In this document: positions 2,307-29,563 of the stretch, in pieces
Numbering within the stretch: position 1 is the stretch's first letter
Layout: each line of letters starts with the position of its first letter
Assembly (NCBI GenBank): GCA_028280845.1
Contig: JANQKZ010000019.1
Span: 124,001-188,000 of the forward strand
From: Opitutales bacterium
GTDB taxonomy: Bacteria > Verrucomicrobiota > Verrucomicrobiia > Opitutales > JABSRG01
Length of the DNA stretch: 64,000 nucleotides
Direction: 5' to 3'
Translations under genes and position numbers: made by a program
Notes under the pieces: generated by a model
What the model saw: the letters and a program-made list of their open reading frames with translations, nothing else
Databases searched by the model: none
What the model was told of the DNA's origin: nothing

Positions 2307-3463
2307 AGACGATTTCTAAGAAGGTAAAAGCTGGGTTGTCACTGGCGGGCACGGTCGCCGTCTGTTTAACGGTTATAATGGCATTATCGTTTCTGGAACC
2401 GGTGGATCGAGTTCAGGAAACGCTTATAGAGGACTCGGTTGGAATGCCGGTTTCCGTCGTCACTGTGGAAGCGCGTACCCATGCCGCGAAGGTAGCGGCA
2501 TTGGGCGAAGTGATGCCTGTATGGGAGTCAACGGTTCGCGCTCAGGTTAATGGCAGAATTGAATTTATTTCCGAAACACTTCATACGGGAGCGTTGGTTA
2601 AGGAAGGTGAGGTATTGGTCCGGCTTGAGCGTAGCGCTTATGAAGCGCAGGCCGCGGATGCGAGGAGCCGACTGGCATCGGCCGAAACCGAGCTTCTACA
2701 GGAGGAGTTGCTGGGTCAGGAAGCGCAAGAGAACTGGGCACGGTCCGGAATGGGTGGACAACCGGATTCCCCGCTGACTTTGCGAACCCCGCAGTTCAAG
2801 GTGGCCCAGTCTGCCGTGGACGCGGCAAAAACGGCCTTGGACTATGCAGAGCGGCAGCTAAGTTGGACGGAAATTCGAGCTCCGTTTGATGGCGTGGTCA
2901 TTTCGCGTAGCGTGGATCTGGGTGAGTCGCTGTTTGCTGGCGATGTGGTGGGCTCTTTCTATGGACTTGATGCCGTCGAGGTCGGCATCCAGCTGGATAA
3001 TACGGAGTGGAATCTACTTCCCCAGCCGTTGATTGGGAGTGAAGCCAGGTTGCGGGAGCCGCAACAGGATTCCGAATGGGGAGCGAGTGTCATTCGCGAT
3101 AGCCAGCAAATGAATCGTCACTCGCGTTTACGGACACTCTTCCTGCGCGTGGATAACCCACTGCAACAGGATCCTCCGCTTTTGCCGGGGATGTTTGTTC
3201 GAACGGAGCTATCCGGGCGGGAGATTACCGGGTTGATACGGCTTCCGGAATCGGCATTGACCAAGGCGGGCAAGGTCTGGTTTGTCGATGCGGATAATCG
3301 ATTGGTCTCAATCCGTACAGAACCGCTTTTCCGAGGGGATGGAACAGTATACATCGAGATTTCTGCGGGGATAGCGGATAAACTCCGTGTTGCGGTGTCG
3401 CCGGATAGTAGTTTCGTATCCGGATTGCAAGTACGGCCTATTGAAGACGGAAAGGGAAGTTAG
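2303..3463 (+). CDS. RND efflux periplasmic adaptor (membrane-fusion protein)
   Basis: A 386-residue HlyD/AcrA-type adaptor. One N-terminal membrane segment (about residues 10-29) anchors it in the inner membrane. It is followed by the first half of a lipoyl-like domain (VRAQVNGRIEFI), a helical hairpin (about 110-165), the second lipoyl half (WTEIRAPFDGVVISRSVDLGE) and beta-barrel and membrane-proximal domains. It bridges the permease and the NodT channel encoded on either side. The start overlaps the previous stop (ATGA), and the permease begins 2 bp after its stop, so the pump genes are one transcript. Confidence 0.92.
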   Translation: MKTISKKVKAGLSLAGTVAVCLTVIMALSFLEPVDRVQETLIEDSVGMPVSVVTVEARTHAAKVAALGEVMPVWESTVRAQVNGRIEFISETLHTGALVKEGEVLVRLERSAYEAQAADARSRLASAETELLQEELLGQEAQENWARSGMGGQPDSPLTLRTPQFKVAQSAVDAAKTALDYAERQLSWTEIRAPFDGVVISRSVDLGESLFAGDVVGSFYGLDAVEVGIQLDNTEWNLLPQPLIGSEARLREPQQDSEWGASVIRDSQQMNRHSRLRTLFLRVDNPLQQDPPLLPGMFVRTELSGREITGLIRLPESALTKAGKVWFVDADNRLVSIRTEPLFRGDGTVYIEISAGIADKLRVAVSPDSSFVSGLQVRPIEDGKGS

Positions 3464-17521: not shown

Positions 17522-18472
17522 CTACTGGTTTAGCCGCATCTGGCGCCGGTAGCGGGCGGGGGATATCCCGCGGTTTCTGCTGAATGCCCTGGAAAGGGTG
17601 GCCGCATCTGAGTAACCCGTACGTTCCGCAATCTGCTCCATGCCCAGTTCGGTATAGGCCAACAATTCTGAAGCCAGCCTTAATCGCAGGTAATAGAGAC
17701 GCTTTATCGGGCTCAGGCCATAGGCGAGATGACAAAGGCGGCGAAGATGCTCTTCACTGACCCGAGCGATGCTGGCCAGAGACTCGCAGGTCCAATCCCG
17801 GGAAATGTCCGCTTCCACGGCAATCCACAGTCGCCGGAGCCGTGGGTCGAGTTCGTTACCGGCCAATGCCCTCCGGGTATAGGTGATCACCAGCTGTACC
17901 CAGGATTCCATGGTCAATTCATCCTTCAAATGAATCGTTTCATTATAAAGACCCAGCAGGGGGAAGGATAAGAGATTGGGATCCACGGAAATGATATACG
18001 GCTGATCCCTTCTCATATAGGACCGAATACTTTCCGGCCCATCTCCTTCAAAAATAACCCATGAGAACTCCATTTCCTTTCCGGGAGAAGCAAAGTAAGC
18101 GTGTTGTTTTTTCCGGGGAGTGATGTACGCCATCCCGGGGCTTAAGGTGACCCAGCGGTCATCAATCAGCGCTACGGCCTCCCCAGAGCAACAGACGAGC
18201 ATCTGGGTCGTTACCGGATTTTTTCGAATGAACAGATTCCCTCTTCGAGTGACGGTATGCCCTCCCATAATGATTCCATATTTTTCCAAAAGAATGGGAA
18301 AATCCAAATGGCTGGTAATTCTAGCCCAGGTATCGGGACCCACATCGTGGGTTTCGGCTAAATTACCGGGACTTGGATAGGGACTGGCTCCTAGCCAAAC
18401 ATCCATGAACAGATTATCTCTTTGATGGGTTTCATCGTAAAAATAAGGCCTGAAGCCTTTCAATAAGAGCAT
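17522..18472 (-). CDS. AraC-family transcriptional regulator
   Basis: A 316-residue activator-type regulator. The N-terminal half (about 30-170) looks like an AraC cupin sensor (GGHTVTRRGNLFIRK, then LIDDRWVTLSPGMAYITPRKKQHAYF). The C-terminal 100 residues hold the double helix-turn-helix: CESLASIARVSEEHLRRLCH and the consensus MEQIAERTGYSDAATLSRAFSRNRGISPARYR. It is divergent from the glucuronidase-like gene at 18713, its probable target. A decayed copy of its first 60 codons lies at 22.7 kb in front of the TonB receptor, so this regulator region has been duplicated. Confidence 0.92.
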   Translation of the reverse strand: MLLLKGFRPYFYDETHQRDNLFMDVWLGASPYPSPGNLAETHDVGPDTWARITSHLDFPILLEKYGIIMGGHTVTRRGNLFIRKNPVTTQMLVCCSGEAVALIDDRWVTLSPGMAYITPRKKQHAYFASPGKEMEFSWVIFEGDGPESIRSYMRRDQPYIISVDPNLLSFPLLGLYNETIHLKDELTMESWVQLVITYTRRALAGNELDPRLRRLWIAVEADISRDWTCESLASIARVSEEHLRRLCHLAYGLSPIKRLYYLRLRLASELLAYTELGMEQIAERTGYSDAATLSRAFSRNRGISPARYRRQMRLNQ

Positions 18473-18559
18473 TCAAAGCACTGGGGTCATACAGTCTCAA
18501 GATTTCTCCCGCATTCCGGAAAAGTTAAACTAAAGACCGCCCCTAAATAAACATATAAT

Positions 18560-18697
18560 AATGTGGACTTTGGCAAAGAGTATGGGCGCATGACCAGGTT
18601 GGGCAGCGACTCCCATGCCCCCATGCGTTACGGGCCTGGAATCCTGTGCTTTACCCTCGATGAATATCACTGCGTTGTCGTGGACGAAGATATCTAA
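18560..18697 (+). pseudogene. Short coding-like remnant, family not recognised
   Basis: The frame from the ATG at 18590 reads 35 residues (MTRLGSDSHAPMRYGPG, then a hydrophobic LCFTLDEYHCVVVDEDI end) and stops at 18697, 15 bp before the next gene. It looks like the C-terminus of a larger protein whose beginning is gone. The stretch 18560-18591 is shared with 22924-22955 (AATGTGG, then TT, GGCAAAGA and GCGCAT in the same order), so it either belongs to the same ancient duplication as the AraC fragment or is a conserved control element. I cannot name the family. Confidence 0.35.
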
Positions 18698-18712: not shown

Positions 18713-20833
18713 ATGATGAAACACTACATACCACTCCTCCTATCCCTGGTCATGGTTTCCTCGCTGGCATCGCAAAGCTACCAGTTCGACTTTGAGCCGA
18801 AAACCCCAATACAAAAATACGCGGTCAACCGTTTGAAGCAGTCCCTGGCGGCGGTCGATTATCATGGAGCAAATGCCAATGCTACCTATGTAATCTCGGT
18901 CGAGTTCAATGATGCACTCACAGCCGAGGGCTACACCCTGAAAGCTGGAGTGGATTCACTCACCTTGTCAGGGGCGGATGATCGGGGATTGCTCTATGGC
19001 ATGTTGGACGTCGCGGAAAGCATTTCGCACGGAGTCCAGCTTGCGCAGATCACCTCCAAATCGGTCGCCCCGGCCAATGGATTTCGCGCCATCAAATTCA
19101 ACCTTCCCTGGCGTTCCTACCGGTTTGGCCCGGCACTCTCTCAACACATGGAGACCGCGCGCGATCTCGTGTTCTGGGAACGGTTTCTCGATATGATGGC
19201 GACGAACCGATTCAACGCCTTGTCCCTTTGGAATCTACACCCGTTCAGCTACATGATTCGGGCAAAGAACTTTCCGTTTGCCTGCGATCTGAAAACAGAT
19301 GCGGAGTTGGCCGACTGGCAGAACTTTTACCGTGAACTATTCCGCATGGCTCAGGAGCGCGGCATCGACACCTACGTGGTGAATTGGAACATTTTCCTAC
19401 CGGACGGCTTCGTGGAACACTACGGCCTGCCCCGAGACCGCAACGTCCACAAATGGAATGATTCGGTCTCACCCGAGATCGATGCTCTCATTCGTCAATA
19501 TACCCGCGAGAGCGTGACCCAAACCCTGGAGGAGTATCCCAACCTAACCGGCATAGGTCTCAGTTTGGGCGAAGCCATGAACGGTATGGATGAGGTCAAA
19601 CGACAGGAGTGGATCTCCAACACGATGGTGCGGGGCGTGCAGGAGGCGAATCGACCGGCACGCCTCATTCACCGGGTTCCGTTTTCGGGCGGTAATCGGA
19701 ATTTCGGCGACATGGATAAAGACACCGAAGTACTCACCCGGCGCACGCTCGAGAAAATCACCGGCATCGAGGACAAGATCATCGTCGAGGTGAAGTTCAA
19801 CTGGTCGCATGCCCACAGCACGCCCGAGCTGGTAAAAGTCCATGGCGGGTTCTTTTCCGACACGTATTTCAACCCGGAGCCCGACAACTACGAGCTGATG
19901 TGGATGGCGCGCAATGAGGACTTCTTCTTCCTGCGCTGGGGGCAGTCCGACTTCATTCGCGAACACATCCGCCTTAACAAACACTCCTACGTGGGCGGCT
20001 ACTTTGTCGGCTCGGAGATGTATATTCCAGCCCTGGATTATTTTACTAAACCGGAGCGCGAGGTGGATTGGGACTATGCGTTTGAGCGCCAGTGGTTGTT
20101 CTATGAAATGTGGGGCCGCCTGCTCTACGACCCGGCCACGCCGGACGAGGTGTTCGTGCGATCATTCGCCCGGCGCTACGGAGCAGACTACGCACGGTTG
20201 TTCGATGCCTATGCAGTGGCTTCGCGCGTGCCGCTGCTCATCTGTTCCAATTGGGATGTAACTAACGACCGTTCCATCTACGCGGAAATGTTCATGTCCA
20301 ATCGGCGCGAACCCGACCGCCGGGCCAACCTCATCACTGTGCAGAACCTTATCGCGGACCGGCCGCTCGACCCGCAGTTTGTCTCTATCCGGGACTACGT
20401 GGCCGCCGACCTTTCCGGCCTACCCTTCGCCACCGACCGCGTGACGCCCCCGGCTTTGGCGGACGAATTTGAGTCAGTCGGCCATCGGGCATCCAGATTG
20501 ATCGCAGGTCTGGTTCCTGAGAACGACTCCCTTGCCTACGAAATCGGCGATGTGCAGGCCTGGTCTCATCTTTCCCTCTACATGGCCGACAAAATCCGGG
20601 GTGCCACGGCGTTTCATTTTTATGAGCAAACCGGAAAGACTGCCTACCAGCAGCAGGCAATCACCCACCTGACCGCAGCCCGTGATCATTGGCTCGAATT
20701 GGTCGCCATCACCACCGATCTTTACCCGGAAACCTACTGCCAGATTCTGCCCAATGGCTTAGAGGAGAAATGGCATTGGTCGAAATTACTGCCGGTTGTG
20801 CAGGCCGACATCGATTTCGTCGTCGATCAATAA
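18713..20833 (+). CDS. Exported glycoside hydrolase, alpha-glucuronidase-like (GH67/GH20-type fold)
   Basis: A 706-residue exported protein (signal peptide about residues 1-19, ending SSLASQ). Residues 25-125 resemble the small alpha/beta domain that precedes the barrel in GH20 and GH67 enzymes (GYTLKAGVDSLTLSGADDRGLLYGMLDVAE is diagnostic of that domain). A TIM-barrel region follows (MMATNRFNALSLWNLHPFSYM, VVNWNIF, TGIGLSLGEAMNG with a candidate catalytic Glu). This layout fits alpha-glucuronidase-type or hexosaminidase-type hydrolases. Exact activity is not resolved; a uronic-acid substrate is inferred. It is divergent from the AraC regulator and upstream of a secreted sulfatase. Confidence 0.65.
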   Translation: MMKHYIPLLLSLVMVSSLASQSYQFDFEPKTPIQKYAVNRLKQSLAAVDYHGANANATYVISVEFNDALTAEGYTLKAGVDSLTLSGADDRGLLYGMLDVAESISHGVQLAQITSKSVAPANGFRAIKFNLPWRSYRFGPALSQHMETARDLVFWERFLDMMATNRFNALSLWNLHPFSYMIRAKNFPFACDLKTDAELADWQNFYRELFRMAQERGIDTYVVNWNIFLPDGFVEHYGLPRDRNVHKWNDSVSPEIDALIRQYTRESVTQTLEEYPNLTGIGLSLGEAMNGMDEVKRQEWISNTMVRGVQEANRPARLIHRVPFSGGNRNFGDMDKDTEVLTRRTLEKITGIEDKIIVEVKFNWSHAHSTPELVKVHGGFFSDTYFNPEPDNYELMWMARNEDFFFLRWGQSDFIREHIRLNKHSYVGGYFVGSEMYIPALDYFTKPEREVDWDYAFERQWLFYEMWGRLLYDPATPDEVFVRSFARRYGADYARLFDAYAVASRVPLLICSNWDVTNDRSIYAEMFMSNRREPDRRANLITVQNLIADRPLDPQFVSIRDYVAADLSGLPFATDRVTPPALADEFESVGHRASRLIAGLVPENDSLAYEIGDVQAWSHLSLYMADKIRGATAFHFYEQTGKTAYQQQAITHLTAARDHWLELVAITTDLYPETYCQILPNGLEEKWHWSKLLPVVQADIDFVVDQ

Positions 20834-20865: not shown

Positions 20866-21055
20866 ATCGTTTTCACTTACCAGGAGGGCAAGCATGGCCT
20901 ACGCTACCGGCGACGGTTCAGCCGGATTTTACGATATGGTGGCCGAGCCTAAGCAACTGACCAACCTCGCCACCGAACCGTCCCGTGCGGTTGAAGTTGC
21001 CCGGCATGATACCATGCTCGAAGCATGGCTCACCGATCCCGTAAACAATCAATAA
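20866..21055 (+). pseudogene. Decayed C-terminal fragment of a sulfatase
   Basis: Frame one reads IVFTYQEGKHGLRYR from 20866, like the late strand of S1 sulfatases. The adjacent frame then reads GFYDMVAEPKQLTNLATEPS and ends in LEAWLTDPVNNQ with a stop at 21053-21055. That second part is the standard sulfatase C-terminus (YDL..DP.E..NLA..P). The two pieces are in different frames, and the front 400 residues are missing. A complete sulfatase gene starts 17 bp later, so this is probably the leftover of a tandem copy. Confidence 0.7.
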
Positions 21056-21072
21056 ACTCCAAATCCTCTCCA

Positions 21073-22440
21073 ATGACCCGCATTCTATCTCTCGCCCTGC
21101 TGTTTGCCCTCGTTTCAGCGGTTTCCGCTGGACCGCCCAATATTCTGTTTATCATTTCCGATGATCTTGGCACCAATGGCGTGGGCTATCTTGGCAATCC
21201 GGAGGTGCGCACGCCGGCAGTCGATGCCTTGGCCGCGCGGAGCCTTTCACTGGAACGTATGTATGTGGCCTCGCCCAGCTGCGCACCGTCCCGCGGTGCC
21301 ATGCTTTCGGGCATCATGCCGGCGCGTAACGGAGCCGAGCCCAACCACACCTACGTGCGGGACGATGTGCGGCAGCTCCCCTCCTACATGCGCGAATTGG
21401 GCTATGAAATCGTGGCCATCGGCAAGATACAGCACGGCCGGGCGAGTGGCGCGAACTTCGACCACGAGGACCGCGCGATTTCCGTGGAATCCATAGGCAA
21501 AGTAGAGGATTTCCTGGCGGCCCGTGAATCCACTAAACCTCTGCTGCTCATGGTGGGTATCCGGGATCCGCATACACCGTGGCCAACACCGGCCTTCGAG
21601 CACTACGACCAGCCTGAATTGACTCTGCCGCCGCGATTCATCGATACACCGGAATCACGGGCTCGCTTTGCCAGCTACTACTCTGATGTGGAAATGATGG
21701 ACGACCAGGTGGCAGCCACGTTGGCGGCCGTCGAAAAACACCTTGGCCCGGATACGATCATTTTCTTCACCAGCGATCACGGCGCCCAATTGCCGTTTGG
21801 CAAATGGAACAACTACGAGTCCAGCCTGCGGGTCCCAACGCTGGCCTATGTGCCAGGAGTGACCGAGGCGGGCACCAAATCCGACGCCTTGATCTCATTT
21901 GTCGACTGGGTGCCCACACTGATCGAGTTGGCCGGAGGCGAAGCACCGGAATCGGGATATGGTGACGGCCAGATTGACGGCCGGTCCTTTGTCGACCTGC
22001 TGCACGGCAAAACGGATCACCACCGCGACTACGTATTTGGCACCAATTCCTCCGCGGCCCACCACACCTACCCGCTGCGCTCCGTGGTAAACAAGCGCTA
22101 CCGCTACGTGCGCAATGTCTACCCCGAGCTCAATTTCACGGTGCAATCTGACCACAATCCGGCCGCCGGTGGGCACCCCATGTGGCGGTCATGGGTCGCA
22201 CTGGCCCAAACCGACGATGCTGCTCGTAACTTCATTTTGAACTACCACCAACGCCCCGCGGAGGAGCTCTATGATCTCTATACTGACCCGACCGAGCAAA
22301 ACAATCTGGCCGGCGATCCCGCCCATGCCCAGACCCTGCGCAAACTCCGGGCGGTCACCGACGGTTGGGTTCGTCAAAGCGGCGACCAACTGCTCATGTA
22401 TGGCCGGCCGATGGACGTGCTCCTGCCCGTAGGGGACTGA
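21073..22440 (+). CDS. Exported S1-family sulfatase (iduronate-2-sulfatase-like)
   Basis: A 455-residue Cys-type sulfatase. The start at 21073 gives a signal peptide (MTRILSLALLFALVSAVSAG); the frame from 21025 runs through the remnant sulfatase tail and is rejected. Metal-binding residues are in ILFIISDDLG, the maturation motif is Cys70-Ala-Pro-Ser-Arg74, and the distal metal motif is FFTSDHGAQLPFGKW. The sequence style (KIQHGRASGANFDHED, DDQVAATLAAVEKHLG) is closest to the iduronate-2-sulfatase group, which fits a uronic-acid-containing substrate. It would act in the periplasm or outside the cell. It lies 240 bp after the glucuronidase-like gene. Confidence 0.92.
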   Translation: MTRILSLALLFALVSAVSAGPPNILFIISDDLGTNGVGYLGNPEVRTPAVDALAARSLSLERMYVASPSCAPSRGAMLSGIMPARNGAEPNHTYVRDDVRQLPSYMRELGYEIVAIGKIQHGRASGANFDHEDRAISVESIGKVEDFLAARESTKPLLLMVGIRDPHTPWPTPAFEHYDQPELTLPPRFIDTPESRARFASYYSDVEMMDDQVAATLAAVEKHLGPDTIIFFTSDHGAQLPFGKWNNYESSLRVPTLAYVPGVTEAGTKSDALISFVDWVPTLIELAGGEAPESGYGDGQIDGRSFVDLLHGKTDHHRDYVFGTNSSAAHHTYPLRSVVNKRYRYVRNVYPELNFTVQSDHNPAAGGHPMWRSWVALAQTDDAARNFILNYHQRPAEELYDLYTDPTEQNNLAGDPAHAQTLRKLRAVTDGWVRQSGDQLLMYGRPMDVLLPVGD

Positions 22441-22692
22441 CCCGGCGTGGGCCAGGCTCACCCCAAAGCGAAAGCCGTCATCGGAACAGCCCGCACCGGT
22501 AAAACCGGGGTCTTCCCGGAAGCCGGCACTTCCGACGATTTTTAGATCGTAGCAAAATCTCGCTGGAGTAGCTTCAGCTGAACCGGGCTACTCGACGTCT
22601 ATCACCACGCGGCGGGAAGCAAACAACGAAGTGATCGGACTACGATCCTTTACTTCTCAGATCAGGTGTATTGGCTTTCCCGATTCTCCCAG

Positions 22693-22850
22693 GCATCAGG
22701 TCACACTTCGTGGGTTTCGGCTAAATTATATGGATCTGCATAGGGACCGAGCCCCAACCGGATATTCATTTCCAGGTCATCATTTCTTCGGGTCTCACAG
22801 TAGCTATTAGATTTCAAAGCCTTTTCTTAGGGGAATCACAGGAAAATCAT
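22693..22850 (-). pseudogene. Decayed N-terminal fragment of an AraC regulator
   Basis: Read on the minus strand it gives Y-C-E-T-R-R-N-D-D-L-E-M-N-I-R-L-G-L-G-P then YADPYNLAETHEV, closely matching residues 12-42 of the AraC protein at 17522-18472 (YDETHQRDNLFMDVWLGASP, then YPSPGNLAETHDV). It is broken by an in-frame TGA (22701-22703), two stops near the former start, and a one-base frameshift. The rest of the gene is absent. The same orientation and distance to the shared element show that the block 18.3-18.6 kb was duplicated. Confidence 0.8.
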
Positions 22851-22923
22851 GTACGCCGCCTCCTTAAAGCAGCAGTGTTTTGCGTAAACTGAATTGGGCA
22901 AAATTCGAGAATAATTAATCTAA

Positions 22924-22955
22924 AATGTGGGTTTAGGCAAAGAACCTGTGCGCAT
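22924..22955. repeat. Second copy of the element at 18560-18591
   Basis: AATGTGG, a T-run, GGCAAAGA and TGCGCAT follow in the same order and nearly the same spacing as upstream of the glucuronidase-like gene. It lies about 160 bp before the TonB receptor start. It may be a binding site for the AraC regulator kept after duplication, or simply undecayed duplicated DNA. Confidence 0.45.
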
Positions 22956-23113
22956 GGACTATGGATGAGAATAAGCACGTCTGATATGATTAAGCAGAAA
23001 TCTATTTCTTGAATCTCTTACCCCGCCCCTGAGTAACCATCGAAAAGCAAAACCAAATCAGGCTGTTTTCCTGATCTGGACTGCTCGCCGATGAGCTTAA
23101 CAACCCCTCAGAA

Positions 23114-26100
23114 ATGATGAAACCACTGCAACAAGCTATCTATCTACTCCCCAGCCTGTTATTGGCTGTTGTTACTCCATTGTTGGCCCAGGAAAACGAT
23201 GAAGATGAAGTCGAAGAGCTGTCTCCCTTCGTGATCAGTGAAAGTGCAAACGTTGGATATCTCGCCAATTCGACCCTGGCCGGAACCCGATTAAAGACAC
23301 CGCTACGGGATGTAGGCGCCTCCGTCTCTGTGATGACTTCGGAATTTTTAGAGGATGTCGGAGCTACCGATTCCAGCACCCTGCTCACCTATGGTCTCAA
23401 CACTGAAACTTCGGGAAGCTACGGGAATTTTGCCGGCGGCAACGATGCGGTCAAGGGTGGCGAACGGGTGGATCTATCTGATGCCCGCACCAATCCACAA
23501 CGTGGCCAGCGTGTCCGGGGCCTGGCCCAAGCTGACCTGACGAGGAACTACTTTGAAACGGACATCGCCTTCGACTCCTACAACACGGAGCGAGTCACCA
23601 TTAATCGCGGCCCCAACTCCTTGCTCTTCGGAATTGGCAGCCCGGGGGGAATCATAAACAACGGCACGCTGCAGGCTTCACTGTCCAGGAATTACGGAGA
23701 GGCCAGCCTGAGAATCGGCGAACGCTCCAGCCACCGCGAGTCCTTTCAGTATAATCACGTCTTACTTGAGGATCGGCTGGCGGTAAGAGTCGCTGCCATG
23801 AATGAACGCTTTAACCACCAACAGCGCCCCACCTACGATAATCAGCACCGCTTTTATGCCGCCTTTGAGGGCGTCCTGCTGAAAAATGAGAACAGCAACA
23901 TTTTCGACCGAACCATCATTCGAGGAAATTTCGAAGGAGGCTCTATGGAAAGCAACCCACCGCAAATCACCCCCCCGGGTGATGGGATCTCCGCCTGGTT
24001 CGAACTCCCCGGTGCCTCCAAGGTCGCCGAACTGGAAGCCATTACCGGCGAAACGTTTCCGGATTTCTTCACGGATGGCAGCTTCTCCCCCAAAGCCACC
24101 TATGACCAGCGGGACCCGGGCACCGCAAGGAGCGACTACAATAACGTAGTCGATATTCCCAACTTCATCCAAATCTCTCTGATCTATGAGCAACTCGGTG
24201 GGAATACCGCCCCCGGGTTAACCGGCTCTGACCTGGATGGCAGTGTCATGCGGGTTCAGTACAATCGGAACGATGACTTCCCAGGGCGCCTCGTCTGGGA
24301 CTACTTTGTGGCCAGCTCGCTCTACAGTGCCGACTATCTTCCGGGATTTATAACCCAATCTCTTCCCCTCAGTGTTTTTGATAATGAAAACATGGCCCTG
24401 CATGGAAACACCAACCTGGTAAACCGCGACTTTGACGCCCAGAACTATACGCTCGAACAGACCTTCTTTGGGGGCAGAGCCGGGATCGAACTCGCCTACG
24501 ACTCCCAGAACTATTCCACATTTCGCCGGTTTCCCTTTAATGCCGGAGGGTTCGCCATCGCATTTAATGATATCCTCGTCGACATTCAGGAATACCGCAA
24601 TGATGACACCCCCAACCCCAACCTGGGCCGTCTCATGGCGGTGAGCTCGCAGAGCGCGCTGCAGAGCATTCTCGGGGGAGAAGTTCAGGATATTGAACGG
24701 GAAGCCACACGATTGACCGCATTTTATGATCTCGATTTCACCGGCGCAGACAATGGACTGAAATGGTTGGGCAGGCATGTCTTCACCGGCGTCCTCAGTA
24801 AGCAATCCCGCGATATCCGCGACCGGGAAGAAGGAGCGGCCTGGGTCTCAGACGTTTTAGATATCGGCGGAAGTAATTTCCATTTCCATGACATCGCCGG
24901 CAGTCGCCGACAAGTCGTTTCCCAGGTGTATTTGTCAGATCCAATCCACAGCAACTCGTCGATTAATTCCCTGAGTGACCTGAAAATCAGCAACTATGTA
25001 AATATTGATCTTCCCCGGAACGGCCAGACTTACAATGTGGCGGTGTATGATCGTTTCAATGGCGGCTTTTCCTACATCCCGGCCAGAACCGTCGTTTACG
25101 ATCGAGAATTTAAACGGACCAGAAGAGAAGTAGAGACTCAAGTAATCAGCCTGCAAAGTTACCTGCTGGGTGGAAATATAGTGGGGTTGATTGGATACCG
25201 GACCGACGAACAAACGACCTGGCAGCACATCCCCAATGTGGAAAATCCGGATGGGTCGCTGAATATCCCCGAATCAGATGTGCTGGAGCGCTCGAGGGAC
25301 CCCCTCACCGGAGAGGTCCTCGCTCCTGAAAAAGGGGACACATTGACATGGAGTATTGTCGCCCACACCCCCGCAAGCTGGACAGAGGATATATGGAGCC
25401 GTCCCCGTTTCAGTGTCCATTACAATGACTCTGAAAACTTTAACCCGATCGGGGCCCGGACCGATATCGATGGAAACGCCATTGCCTCCCCCTCCGGCAC
25501 AACGGAGGAATACGGTTTCTCCGTAGAACTGTTTGATAATAAATTGAACGCCCGCGTGAGCTGGTATGAAACCGCCATCGCCAATGATTCGGCCTCTATT
25601 GATCCACTCACGATTCCCAACCGGATTGGAAACTGGCTGAGTCGATGGCAGGAAGGGATCAATGACCAGCAAACCATAGAGTGGATGCTGGCCCAGACCC
25701 CGGGTGATCCGCAAAACGGGTTGTGGAGTTCCTACGAGGAGGCCTTCAATGCCTTCACCGACTTGCTGCCGGCGAGAACCCAAGCGCTCTACAACTACCG
25801 GGTCGAGCCGTTGAATACGATTGGAGCAGATATTGAGGACGATACCGACCTCTATCCCAATGTCGTTGCCACCCGCCAATTTGTCTCGAAGGGAATGGAA
25901 ATTGATTTGATTGCCAATCCCACACCAAACTGGCGACTGATGCTCAATGTCGGCCAACAGGAAACGGTCCAAAGCAGCATTGCTCCAGCGTTGGCCGCAG
26001 TGGCCTCAGAAATCGACACCAATTTGCGGGCCTCTGATTTCATTGACCTGCGCGACGCCCCGACCCTCGGAGAGGCCTCCACCTTCCGGTCCCGGTGGGC

Positions 26101-26539
26101 AGGAACCTACGGTGTGCTTCTGGCTGAGCTGGCCCAGGAGGGAACCGCCTCCCTCGAACAACGAGAATGGCGGGTAAATCTCATCTCATCCTACGACTTC
26201 TCCGAAGGCACCTTGAAGGGACTGGGAGTGGGCGGCGCATACCGCTGGCAGAGTGAAGTGGCCACCGGCTACCCCCTGGAAGACCCCGATAATGACGGAA
26301 TAAACACCCCCGACCTCACCCGACCCTTCTTTGGAGATCCGGAATGGAATATGGATTTCTGGATGAGTTATAGTCGCAGAATTTCCGACAAAGTGGATTG
26401 GAAAATCCAACTCAATGTGAGGAATCTCCTTGGTGGAGACGATGTAATCCCTGTGATTACCAACCCGGATGGCGAAATGGCCGTATTCAGAAACTCACTA
26501 CCCACCGAGTTCTTCCTAACCAATACCTTCCGCTTTTAA
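23114..26539 (+). CDS. TonB-dependent outer-membrane receptor
   Basis: A 1141-residue outer-membrane importer. It has a signal peptide (about 1-25, ending PLLAQ), then an acidic stretch leading into VEELSPFVISE, a segment at the position of a TonB box. The plug follows (about 50-190; ASVSVMTSEFLEDVGATDSS, and RVTINRGPNSLLFGIGSPGGIIN is the conserved end of the plug). The remainder is a beta-barrel with the C-terminal strand ending NTFRF. It would move oligosaccharides into the periplasm using energy from TonB. There is no SusD gene beside it, as usual outside Bacteroidota. A symporter and cytoplasmic sulfatases follow on the same strand. The second codon is also ATG (23117). Confidence 0.93.
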   Translation: MMKPLQQAIYLLPSLLLAVVTPLLAQENDEDEVEELSPFVISESANVGYLANSTLAGTRLKTPLRDVGASVSVMTSEFLEDVGATDSSTLLTYGLNTETSGSYGNFAGGNDAVKGGERVDLSDARTNPQRGQRVRGLAQADLTRNYFETDIAFDSYNTERVTINRGPNSLLFGIGSPGGIINNGTLQASLSRNYGEASLRIGERSSHRESFQYNHVLLEDRLAVRVAAMNERFNHQQRPTYDNQHRFYAAFEGVLLKNENSNIFDRTIIRGNFEGGSMESNPPQITPPGDGISAWFELPGASKVAELEAITGETFPDFFTDGSFSPKATYDQRDPGTARSDYNNVVDIPNFIQISLIYEQLGGNTAPGLTGSDLDGSVMRVQYNRNDDFPGRLVWDYFVASSLYSADYLPGFITQSLPLSVFDNENMALHGNTNLVNRDFDAQNYTLEQTFFGGRAGIELAYDSQNYSTFRRFPFNAGGFAIAFNDILVDIQEYRNDDTPNPNLGRLMAVSSQSALQSILGGEVQDIEREATRLTAFYDLDFTGADNGLKWLGRHVFTGVLSKQSRDIRDREEGAAWVSDVLDIGGSNFHFHDIAGSRRQVVSQVYLSDPIHSNSSINSLSDLKISNYVNIDLPRNGQTYNVAVYDRFNGGFSYIPARTVVYDREFKRTRREVETQVISLQSYLLGGNIVGLIGYRTDEQTTWQHIPNVENPDGSLNIPESDVLERSRDPLTGEVLAPEKGDTLTWSIVAHTPASWTEDIWSRPRFSVHYNDSENFNPIGARTDIDGNAIASPSGTTEEYGFSVELFDNKLNARVSWYETAIANDSASIDPLTIPNRIGNWLSRWQEGINDQQTIEWMLAQTPGDPQNGLWSSYEEAFNAFTDLLPARTQALYNYRVEPLNTIGADIEDDTDLYPNVVATRQFVSKGMEIDLIANPTPNWRLMLNVGQQETVQSSIAPALAAVASEIDTNLRASDFIDLRDAPTLGEASTFRSRWAGTYGVLLAELAQEGTASLEQREWRVNLISSYDFSEGTLKGLGVGGAYRWQSEVATGYPLEDPDNDGINTPDLTRPFFGDPEWNMDFWMSYSRRISDKVDWKIQLNVRNLLGGDDVIPVITNPDGEMAVFRNSLPTEFFLTNTFRF

Positions 26540-26642: not shown

Positions 26643-28061
26643 ATGGAAAAACCGTCTACCCAGACCCGAAAATATGTCTCCACCCGGGAAAAAGCCCTCT
26701 ACGGGGTCGGCGGTTTCGTCAACAATCTGCTCGATAATGCGGTCTCCAGACTGACTAATCCGGTCCTGAACATGACCCTGCATATCAGCCCCTCGCTGAT
26801 TGCCATCCTCATCCTGGTTCCGCGGGTCTGGGACGCCCTGTCTGACCCCATCATGGGGCAGATTTCGGACAACGCACGGACCCGGTGGGGTCGCCGGAAA
26901 CCATTCATCGTGGCGGGCGCGGTTTGGAGTGGGATGGCCATCGGAGTCCTGTGGCTCCTTCCATCAGGTATGTCGGAGATGCAAACCTTCTGGTGGTTTT
27001 TGTGCTTCTCGCTGATCTTCTTTACCGGAGCCACTGTATTCATTGTTCCCTACCTCGCCCTGGGAAAAGAGATGACCCCTGATTACCACGAGCGGACTTC
27101 CATCGCCGGTTTCCGTATGGCTGCTGCCAAATTCTCTGGCCCAATCAACCAGGGGCTCCCCTGGTTTGCCGCTCTTCTGGCTGGAGCCGCCGGGACGATG
27201 GTAGATGGCGCGCGCATCATCGGCCTCATCCTGATGGTCCTGATTATCGGGGTGGGCGTTATCTCCGGCTTGGCACCCAAGGAACGGTACTTCAACATCG
27301 CCAAAGCCGAGGGACAAGTGCCCCTCAGGAAGGCCCTGGTCGAAACCTTCAAAAACCGCCCCTTTATTGTCCTCGCCCTCACCAATCTACTGTTTTGGGT
27401 AGGCATCGCGATGGTCGATTACCTGGGTTCCTACATCAACGTGTACTACATCGCAGGTGGCAAAACGACTGTCGGTTTAGGTTACCAGACGGCATACGGG
27501 CTGGCTCAGCATTTGATTGCCCTCGCCTTGATCCCAGTCATCACACGGCTATCCGTTCGCTTTGGAAAAAAAACAACGGTTCTGGCCGGACTGATCACCG
27601 TGGCGTGGGCCAGCTTCCTCAAGTTCTTCTGCTATACCCCTGCCGCCTGGCAGTTGCAGTTTGTGGTCGCACTCTTTATGGGCCCCGGCCAGGCATGCCT
27701 GAACGTGGTGCTACAATCCATGATGGCAGACATATGCGACTTCGATGAGTGGAAACTACACAAGAGACGGGAGGGCATGTATGGTGCCGCCCTCAGCTGG
27801 CTGACCAAAATGGGCATCGCCCTTGCCGTGGCCATAAATAATATCCTTCTGGTTTGGACCGGCTTTGACGCATCACTTGGAGGCAATCAATCCGAAGACA
27901 CGTTGTTGGGCTTGCGCCTGGCATTTACAATCGTGCCCATCATTTCCTGCGCCATTGCTTACCTGGTTTTCCGGAGATACACCTTGAGTGAAAAACAGCT
28001 GCTGGATATCCGCAACGAACTGGAAGCCCGTCGCGGCAAGGTGGAAGGGGGTGAGGAGTAA
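26643..28061 (+). CDS. MFS sugar:cation symporter, GPH (MelB-like) family
   Basis: A 472-residue inner-membrane transporter with 12 predicted TM segments. The glycoside-pentoside-hexuronide family signature is seen in the first half (DALSDPIMGQISDNARTRWGRRKPFI). The second half has GRRKP-like basic motifs replaced by RFGKKTTVLAG. Members import glycosides, pentoses or hexuronides with a cation. It stands between the TonB receptor and two sulfatases that lack signal peptides, with only 5 bp to the first of them. The likely cargo is therefore a sulfated mono- or oligosaccharide that is desulfated after import. Confidence 0.9.
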   Translation: MEKPSTQTRKYVSTREKALYGVGGFVNNLLDNAVSRLTNPVLNMTLHISPSLIAILILVPRVWDALSDPIMGQISDNARTRWGRRKPFIVAGAVWSGMAIGVLWLLPSGMSEMQTFWWFLCFSLIFFTGATVFIVPYLALGKEMTPDYHERTSIAGFRMAAAKFSGPINQGLPWFAALLAGAAGTMVDGARIIGLILMVLIIGVGVISGLAPKERYFNIAKAEGQVPLRKALVETFKNRPFIVLALTNLLFWVGIAMVDYLGSYINVYYIAGGKTTVGLGYQTAYGLAQHLIALALIPVITRLSVRFGKKTTVLAGLITVAWASFLKFFCYTPAAWQLQFVVALFMGPGQACLNVVLQSMMADICDFDEWKLHKRREGMYGAALSWLTKMGIALAVAINNILLVWTGFDASLGGNQSEDTLLGLRLAFTIVPIISCAIAYLVFRRYTLSEKQLLDIRNELEARRGKVEGGEE

Positions 28062-28066
28062 CCCGC

Positions 28067-29563
28067 ATGGCAAGGTCCCCCAATATCCTTCTCATCTGCA
28101 CCGATTCGCTGAGAACCGATGCACTGGGTTTTATGGGAAATCCGCATGCGATCTCCCCCCATGCGAATCAACTGGCCCGGGAAGGCGTTTGGTTTGAACA
28201 GGCCCATACCGTGTCTCCCGTTTGCATGCCGGCGAGGTGCAGCCTGATCACTGGTGTATATCCGCCCGTCCACGAATGCCTGGAAAACGGAATGGGACGC
28301 AGGCAGGATCTGGAAACCTTTGTGGAAAAGCTAAACGCTTCGGGCTACACCACCATCATGGCAGGCAAGCAACACTTTGGCGCCTGCCCCCGTTTTGATA
28401 GGATCATCCATCCGGAGGCCTCGGAGTTAAGCAGGCTCTCAATGGATGGAAAATTTCCCACAGATCGATCTTTCGCAAATACATCACAGATCATTCCTGA
28501 TGCGGTTGTTGTCCAGCAAACCATAGACGCCATGAGGGAACACCAGAAGAGGCAGAGCCCTTTTTTCGCTTTTTGCTCACTGGAAGCCCCTCATGTCCCC
28601 CTCATTCCTCCCTCACGATGGATGGACAAAATGATGGATTTTCCCCTTCCCGACCTGAATCTAAGTCCGGGAGAGGAAAGCAAGCTTCCCCATCACCAAA
28701 AGAAGCTCCTCGGGCTGAATGCAAATGAAGGCGTTGAAAATGACGATCTCAAAGAGAATCCGGAATACTGGATAGAGGCCGCAGGACGCTCCTATGATGC
28801 CAGGTTTGCGACCGCCATTAATGCCTGGCGGCGCAGGTATTATGCGTTTGCGGCTTATGCGGATGAGTTGCTGGGCAGATTACTAAATGCTCTCGATGAA
28901 CTGAATCTCACTCAAGATACGGTCGTGGTTTTCACATCCGACCACGGCCAGCAGTATTTCGACCACGGATTTAACGACAAGCATTGCTGGTATGATGAAT
29001 CGTGGCGCATCCCCTTAATCATCCGCCATCCACAGGTTCTACCGGCTGGTAAGCGGGAGCAATTCGCTAATTGGACTGACCTCACCGCCACCATCCTGGG
29101 AATCGCCGGAATAAAAAGTGAAAATGTTCAAGGATACGACCTCTACACCCCCCTCATCACTGGAGAGCCGAATCCTCGTTCCTGTGTTGCCGCTACCCTC
29201 TTCCAATCCTGCGCCCTAGCCACCCGTGAGTGGAAAATTGAATACTATGTTGAGGAGCACACCGGTCGACTGTTTGATCGAGTCTCCGACCCAAAGGAGC
29301 AGAAAAACCAATGGGATTCTCCTCAACATCAACCCATTAAACAGCACCTCCTACTTTCCTTGCTACGTTGGCAAGGCGAGTTGATCTCCGTAGAAAAGGC
29401 CAGGCAAAACCTGACTGCCCAAGCCCCTGACAAGGGGAAGGACACCGTCCTTGTGGCCAACCGGGTCGCCGCAGCCGTCCAGAACTGGAAGGGAATCGAT
29501 CCGGATAACCACCTGCACGCCATGATCTCCACCCTCAACCTGAATCCCATTCCAAGGAATTGA
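28067..29563 (+). CDS. S1-family sulfatase without signal peptide
   Basis: A 498-residue Cys-type sulfatase starting directly with the fold (MARSPNILLICTDSLRTDAL), so it is predicted to be cytoplasmic. The maturation motif is Cys53-Met-Pro-Ala-Arg57 (SPVCMPARCSL). The distal metal motif is VVFTSDHGQQYFDHG followed by DKHCWYDESWRIP. It begins 5 bp after the symporter gene, which ties it to import. It should remove sulfate from a carbohydrate after uptake; formylglycine formation must then also occur in the cytoplasm, by an enzyme encoded elsewhere. Confidence 0.92.
   Translation: MARSPNILLICTDSLRTDALGFMGNPHAISPHANQLAREGVWFEQAHTVSPVCMPARCSLITGVYPPVHECLENGMGRRQDLETFVEKLNASGYTTIMAGKQHFGACPRFDRIIHPEASELSRLSMDGKFPTDRSFANTSQIIPDAVVVQQTIDAMREHQKRQSPFFAFCSLEAPHVPLIPPSRWMDKMMDFPLPDLNLSPGEESKLPHHQKKLLGLNANEGVENDDLKENPEYWIEAAGRSYDARFATAINAWRRRYYAFAAYADELLGRLLNALDELNLTQDTVVVFTSDHGQQYFDHGFNDKHCWYDESWRIPLIIRHPQVLPAGKREQFANWTDLTATILGIAGIKSENVQGYDLYTPLITGEPNPRSCVAATLFQSCALATREWKIEYYVEEHTGRLFDRVSDPKEQKNQWDSPQHQPIKQHLLLSLLRWQGELISVEKARQNLTAQAPDKGKDTVLVANRVAAAVQNWKGIDPDNHLHAMISTLNLNPIPRN

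Follow-up and report, generated by a model that had tools for sequence, protein, structure and literature searches.

The araI half-sites of Escherichia coli are 17 bp in length, recur with a period of 21 bp and overlap the -35 element of the promoter. On induction, E. coli AraC moves to araI1 and araI2, nearer the RNA polymerase, according to one published account (PMC6018408). In the open-access literature, none of the matches listed reported, in the title or the start of the abstract, an operator of the type described below from Verrucomicrobiota, Opitutales or Pelagicoccus. Here, a 64,000-nucleotide stretch of an Opitutales bacterium genome (the window) was analysed, in which a TonB-dependent receptor gene is preceded by a putative operator and promoter and by the remains of a regulator gene. 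We suggest, with a probability of roughly 0.8, that positions 22922-22990 represent the AraC-type operator-promoter of the receptor operon, which would have stayed at the ancestral location when the neighboring AraC copy died. The features on the receptor side are as follows:

22677..22769, minus strand: AraC relic, in which the start codon and roughly 30 codons persist, interrupted by one stop and a 2-base deletion
22922..22953, plus strand: predicted AraC-type operator, with half-site 1 (ATGTGGGTTTAGGCAAA) and half-site 2 (GTG at 22948-22950), period 21
22962..22990, plus strand: sigma70-like receptor promoter (-35 TGGATG, 17-nt spacer, -10 TATGAT), 123 nt to the receptor ATG
23114..26539, plus strand: TonB-dependent receptor with a Plug domain, the likely regulated gene; five orthologs at 54-61%
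26643..29563, plus strand: sugar (GPH-like) transporter and sulfatase, 3′ of the receptor, in an order kept in relatives

The candidate regulator is encoded about 4.5 kb from the receptor:

17522..18472, minus strand: intact AraC/XylS-family regulator gene, with HTH_18 and AraC_binding domains

Its start is probably the ATG at 18406, in a reading frame that opens at 18472, since the N-termini of its homologs are short. The translated product carries the C-terminal double helix-turn-helix of the AraC family (HTH_18, PF12833: 67.2 bits, cut-off 33.6; PF00165: 37.4 bits, cut-off 26.6) and an N-terminal cupin-like ligand domain (AraC_binding, PF02311: 23.1 bits, cut-off 21.1), and it scores 26.7 bits with Cupin_2, just below the cut-off of 27.2. 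It weakly matches the AraC, RhaR and RhaS models, and none of the 21 NCBIfam matches listed for it reached its cut-off. Homologs were sought in 384 genomes of the class and 372 genomes of the order, and in a scan of named genome contigs. Eight distinct close loci were found at 46-62% amino acid identity, weaker matches (≤37%) being left out of this count; class matches below 46% were excluded as close homologs, two of which (L056 and L057) served as outgroups. The contig scan gave no match with the single AraC protein and eight loci with a four-row AraC profile, five of them on contigs also reached by the genome search. An N-terminal ETHxxGPDT-like motif is kept across the group, and in the tree the AraC of the window is sister to that of locus L064 (support 97/94).

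In seven of the eight loci (L053, L054, L055, L066, L067, L068 and L070), the AraC gene and a TonB receptor gene are direct neighbors in divergent orientation, while in L064, which has the closest AraC (62%), it faces a sulfatase gene. The named relatives belong to the Opitutaceae and to Pelagicoccus (Verrucomicrobiota), L067 being Pelagicoccus mobilis, and two near pairs are found among them, L053/L066 and L055/L070. Five of the seven receptors are clear orthologs of that in the window (54-61% identity), each directly divergent from its AraC homolog, and the receptors found in L055 and L070 are more remote (35-37% identity across approximately 300 amino acids). The order receptor-transporter-sulfatase is retained in L054, L067 and L105, and receptor-transporter in L068 and L106. 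In the window, the AraC-receptor pair is separated by a hydrolase and a sulfatase gene, so that the window is the exception, and the relic is most simply read as marking the ancestral place of AraC.

A duplication of the AraC start together with its upstream element, as proposed in a preliminary description of this DNA, is borne out by the comparison of the two copies. The decayed copy spans 22677-22955 and corresponds to the start of the intact AraC gene with its upstream element; the two align locally with a score of 67, and none of 500 dinucleotide shuffles scored higher than 27. In a DNA search of the genome against itself, the copy already described was the sole second copy of note (81% identity; e-value: 7e-10), the next match having an e-value of 0.37, and in the corresponding protein search the relic matched AraC codons 6-53 at 44% identity, one TGA included. 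A 20-base core pattern, designed on the two copies, has two matches in the 64 kb at up to three mismatches (0.01 expected) and exactly two in the whole assembly (4.79 Mb), where the three further matches, each with three mismatches, equal the number in the control (3). The three stops and the frameshift originally reported for the decayed codons reduce to one in-frame stop (a TGA after NLAETHEV) and, further on, a 2-base deletion, the other stops lying outside the homologous stretch; no AraC sequence was found beyond 22677-22769. Across the codon columns, the relic agrees with the intact copy at 50/71 positions, and the two agree with L064 at 40/71 and 36/71, as would be expected if the duplication took place within this lineage; for a tree, the relic is too short.

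The same comparison removes the argument on which a function for the element had originally been based, namely its preferential conservation over the decayed codons. The two copies are identical at 25 of the 32 positions of the element (78%) and at 66 of the 89 positions of the codons from ATG 18406 (74%), with one codon block, NLAETH, reaching 21/22 (95%), and at 47/85 positions (55%) in the non-coding spacer. The element is thus better kept than the spacer (Fisher P 0.03) and no better than the codons, and because its identity is close to that of dead codons, the conservation argument fails.

The case for an operator is instead built on the relatives. An element with a GTG-to-GTG distance of 21 bp, forming a direct repeat, is shared by the site at 22922 and the AraC/receptor gaps of all seven relatives examined, five of which have clearly orthologous receptors. 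Expectation-maximization (EM) motif search in these seven gaps, with the window excluded and gene ends trimmed, recovered the element in 7/7 with a score of 133.5, compared to a mean of 85.1 and a maximum of 92.6 for 20 shuffled gap sets searched with equal effort, a significance that is overstated because the relatives share ancestry. With one member of each near pair removed, the element was found in 5/5 gaps (score 93.0; shuffles: mean 76.4, maximum 84.3). In untrimmed gaps, which included some AraC codons, 300 starts recovered it in 7/7 (score 129.9, the shuffles having been searched with less effort), but when only 150 starts were used, the search settled on a lower optimum (123.4), mostly aligning homologous AraC codons. 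With a matrix derived from the seven relatives alone, the best match in the 64-kb window was the site at 22922 (25.45 bits), followed by 62999 (14.6 bits) and 18558 (13.15 bits). In leave-one-out scans, the site ranked first in L054, L055, L068 and L070, second in L053 behind the site of a second receptor, third in L066 behind the site of a second receptor and another near AraC, and second in L067 (6.8 bits, against 8.3 for an unexplained match). The best matrix matches of L064 lay elsewhere in its AraC gap (15.5 and 13.6 bits) or were weak.

Downstream of half-site 2, a promoter is found at a conserved spacing: its GTG is followed by 11 nt, a -35-like hexamer, 17 nt and a -10-like hexamer, which puts the proximal half-site near the -35. 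This spacing was spotted by eye in eight sites and subsequently scored on 16. The 11 main sites are 22922, those of the seven relatives and three that had played no part in spotting it, which precede the second receptor gene in each of L105 and L106 and a glycosyl-hydrolase-2 (GH2) gene of L104; hexamers were weighted according to general knowledge of bacterial promoters. The 11/17-nt arrangement ranked first of 86 offsets in 11/11 main sites. When eight less related sites were considered, the combination of offset 0 and spacer 17 was the best of 875 cells (7.38; mean -6.29, sd 1.97).

A composite pattern of operator and promoter, allowing up to one mismatch, matched seven sites in 4/372 genomes of the order, one each in the genome of the window (22922), G622 and G278 and four in G313, and its reversed control matched none. 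An AraC profile at an e-value of 1e-60 detected five of the 372 genomes, comprising the four composite carriers and G670, whose site differs from the composite by three mismatches, as does the Pelagicoccus site (L067). The composite is therefore present in 4/5 genomes with the AraC homolog and in 0/367 without it; the nominal Fisher probability of 6e-9 is a guide only, because carrier sites had served to define the pattern and the genomes are related. For the former reason the matches in the carriers are also partly a matter of construction, and the informative part of the scan is the absence from AraC-negative genomes together with the empty reversed control.

The second tandem receptors of L105 (9582) and L106 (5329) possess their own operator-promoter with no AraC gene directly beside them. 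Taken together with the element in 7/7 gaps, this makes a regulator-binding site at the receptor well supported by comparative sequence data, so that this half of the original proposal, which had made the element common to the receptor and the hydrolase at 18.7 kb, is retained. In L104, at 5085 (G313:C68), operator and promoter precede the GH2 gene on a contig other than those of the AraC loci, and this gene is likely a distant member of the regulon. A gene whose start resembles that of the L104 GH2 gene adjoins the receptor in L070. Among the secondary sites, 62999 in the window has no promoter where the spacing predicts one (rank 31 of 86), the promoter of L104 at 238 ranks 65, and that of L066 at 5926, facing AraC, ranks 4. 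L109 has a strong, 26-bit operator match at 3017 (G278:C31), immediately beyond its AraC gene, at which a promoter at the usual spacing is absent (rank 30). A wider regulon in the genome of the window itself was considered and rejected, as the composite finds 22922 only and a loose operator pattern (up to one mismatch) gives five matches, compared to seven in the control. Over six genomes, the loose pattern gives 66 matches against 26 in the control; its places in L107 and L108 score low (4.8 and 10.1 bits), the surroundings of a few having been inspected.

The second copy of the element lies beside the intact AraC gene, at the edge of the segment that separates regulator and receptor:

18558..18586, plus strand: truncated operator beside the intact AraC gene, with half-site 1 kept, half-site 2 reading GGG rather than GTG, and the promoter absent
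18587..18697, plus strand: C-terminal tail of a glycosyl-hydrolase-43 (GH43) gene, 36 codons plus stop, immediately abutting the element
18713..20833, plus strand: hydrolase, distantly alpha-galacturonidase-like (NCBIfam NF049878: 150.8 bits, far below the cut-off of 1300)
20894..21055, plus strand: probable (weak) C-terminal leftover of a sulfatase, between two intact genes
21025..22440, plus strand: sulfatase (Pfam Sulfatase: 139.6 bits)

At the conserved spacing, the 18558 copy has a promoter score of -10.8 (rank 64 of 86), and it holds neither a complete half-site pair nor a promoter. Codons beginning RMT start right after the position of half-site 2 (18584-18586), and the encoded tail shares 57% and 54% identity over 35 amino acids with the ends of GH43 genes in G421 and G482. 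On these comparisons the junction at 18587 is read as a rearrangement breakpoint, at which GCGCATG, common to both copies at the join, may represent microhomology. In G482, that GH43 gene is followed by two homologs of the hydrolase (25%, then 38% identity), so that the tail looks like the remnant of a former upstream neighbor carried along with the hydrolase segment, and the join would have severed the operator from its promoter. Hydrolase homologs adjoin the GH43 gene in L114. A plasmid origin of the hydrolase was considered and set aside, the search having given five distant plasmid matches only. The stretch 20894-21055, which has no Pfam match, resembles sulfatase-like reading frames in L104 (37% over 35 amino acids; e-value: 2e-4) and L111 (63% over 19 amino acids; e-value: 0.005) and may represent another gene remnant within the inserted segment.

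These observations bear directly on whether one functional element serves both hydrolase and receptor, with AraC driving the two from equivalent sites. The core pattern matches both copies, having been derived from them, and 18558 ranks third in the window by the relatives-only matrix; however, its second half-site and promoter are missing, the tail of a GH43 gene lies behind it, and the receptor copy is the only composite in this genome. Sharing with the hydrolase, the remaining half of the original proposal, is thus not upheld, and we regard such a common element as rather unlikely. A role of the 18558 copy in autoregulation of the AraC gene alone, on the minus strand, is a tentative possibility that falls short of an even chance: the distance between element and NLAETH block is alike in the two copies (216 and 217 bp), half-site 1 is identical at 15/18 positions, and in L066 an additional operator-like site faces AraC, but the 18558 site itself is degraded.

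That the two copies are similar merely through residual homology of the duplication, neither being functional, would agree with an element identity no higher than that of the dead codons. It is nevertheless highly improbable, since element and promoter spacing recur at receptors whose gaps are otherwise divergent, and the element is also found at second receptors and at the GH2 gene and co-occurs with the regulator. The carrier genomes other than that of the window hold 41-109 loose AraC-profile candidates each, any of which might supply a different regulator that travels with the receptors and binds in place of the adjacent AraC. We consider this unlikely in view of the regulator co-occurrence, with the reservation that the pattern was made from the carriers, of the AraC gene divergent across the site in seven loci, and of the AraC-like arrangement of a 21-bp direct repeat close to the -35, a likeness partly drawn from general knowledge.

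The preferred reading, an AraC-type operator-promoter retained in front of the receptor, can be arranged into a putative sequence of events. In the ancestral state, the AraC gene would have been divergent from the receptor across the operator. The AraC start and operator would then have been duplicated in this lineage, the hydrolase-sulfatase segment coming to lie between the copies; the receptor-side AraC copy would have been reduced to a stub, its operator-promoter being retained, and the operator copy by the living AraC may have lost half-site 2 and the promoter at the join to the GH43 tail. The intact AraC is predicted to activate the receptor in trans through the operator, whose half-site 2 lies close to the -35, and the promoter would drive the receptor gene and probably those of the transporter and sulfatase. 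As sulfatases, a GPH-like transporter and a distantly galacturonidase-like hydrolase adjoin, we suggest that a sulfated or uronic polysaccharide is the source of the signal. The locus would provide a concrete unit of regulator, operator and promoter, open to testing, that controls receptor, transporter and sulfatase genes in Opitutaceae and Pelagicoccus relatives, as well as an example of a regulatory relic, in which a promoter outlives the neighboring regulator copy and the operator copy of the living regulator is cut off by rearrangement.

The codons of the AETH motif (18341-18362 in the window, and the AraC starts of the relatives), read on the opposite strand, resemble the operator half-site (GTGGGTTTC). 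A second half-site in the NLAETH codons, 216-217 bp from the first and working like araO2 in a repression loop, seems quite improbable; if true, it would explain why this block is the best-kept piece of the dead copy, still serving the receptor promoter. A test of synonymous codons in nine rows gave a Fisher P of 0.002 with the lower-P member of each near pair and 0.015 with the other members, and 0.003-0.027 without the two outgroup rows. General codon bias is a possible cause, because a similar result came from outgroup AraC genes that encode the ETH motif (seven rows, 30 loci inspected: P 0.007; 0.017 for the five not in the first test). Codon block and operator are separated by 215-218 bp in four regions, and elsewhere by 211, 158, 106 and 104 bp (counted by hand; 216 and 217 verified), and no clear helical phase was observed.

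As in E. coli araBAD, paired half-sites are located upstream of a sigma70-like promoter, and in the relatives of the window the regulator gene is divergent from the regulated gene, as is that of E. coli AraC. The C-terminal helix-turn-helix family (HTH_18, 67.2 bits) is likewise that of RhaS and RhaR, from which the AraC group of the window differs in its conserved N-terminal ETHxxGPDT-like motif. In contrast to araI, the half-site reads ATGTGnGTTT and the host group is Verrucomicrobiota, and unlike in araBAD, the predicted target comprises a TonB receptor, a transporter and a sulfatase.
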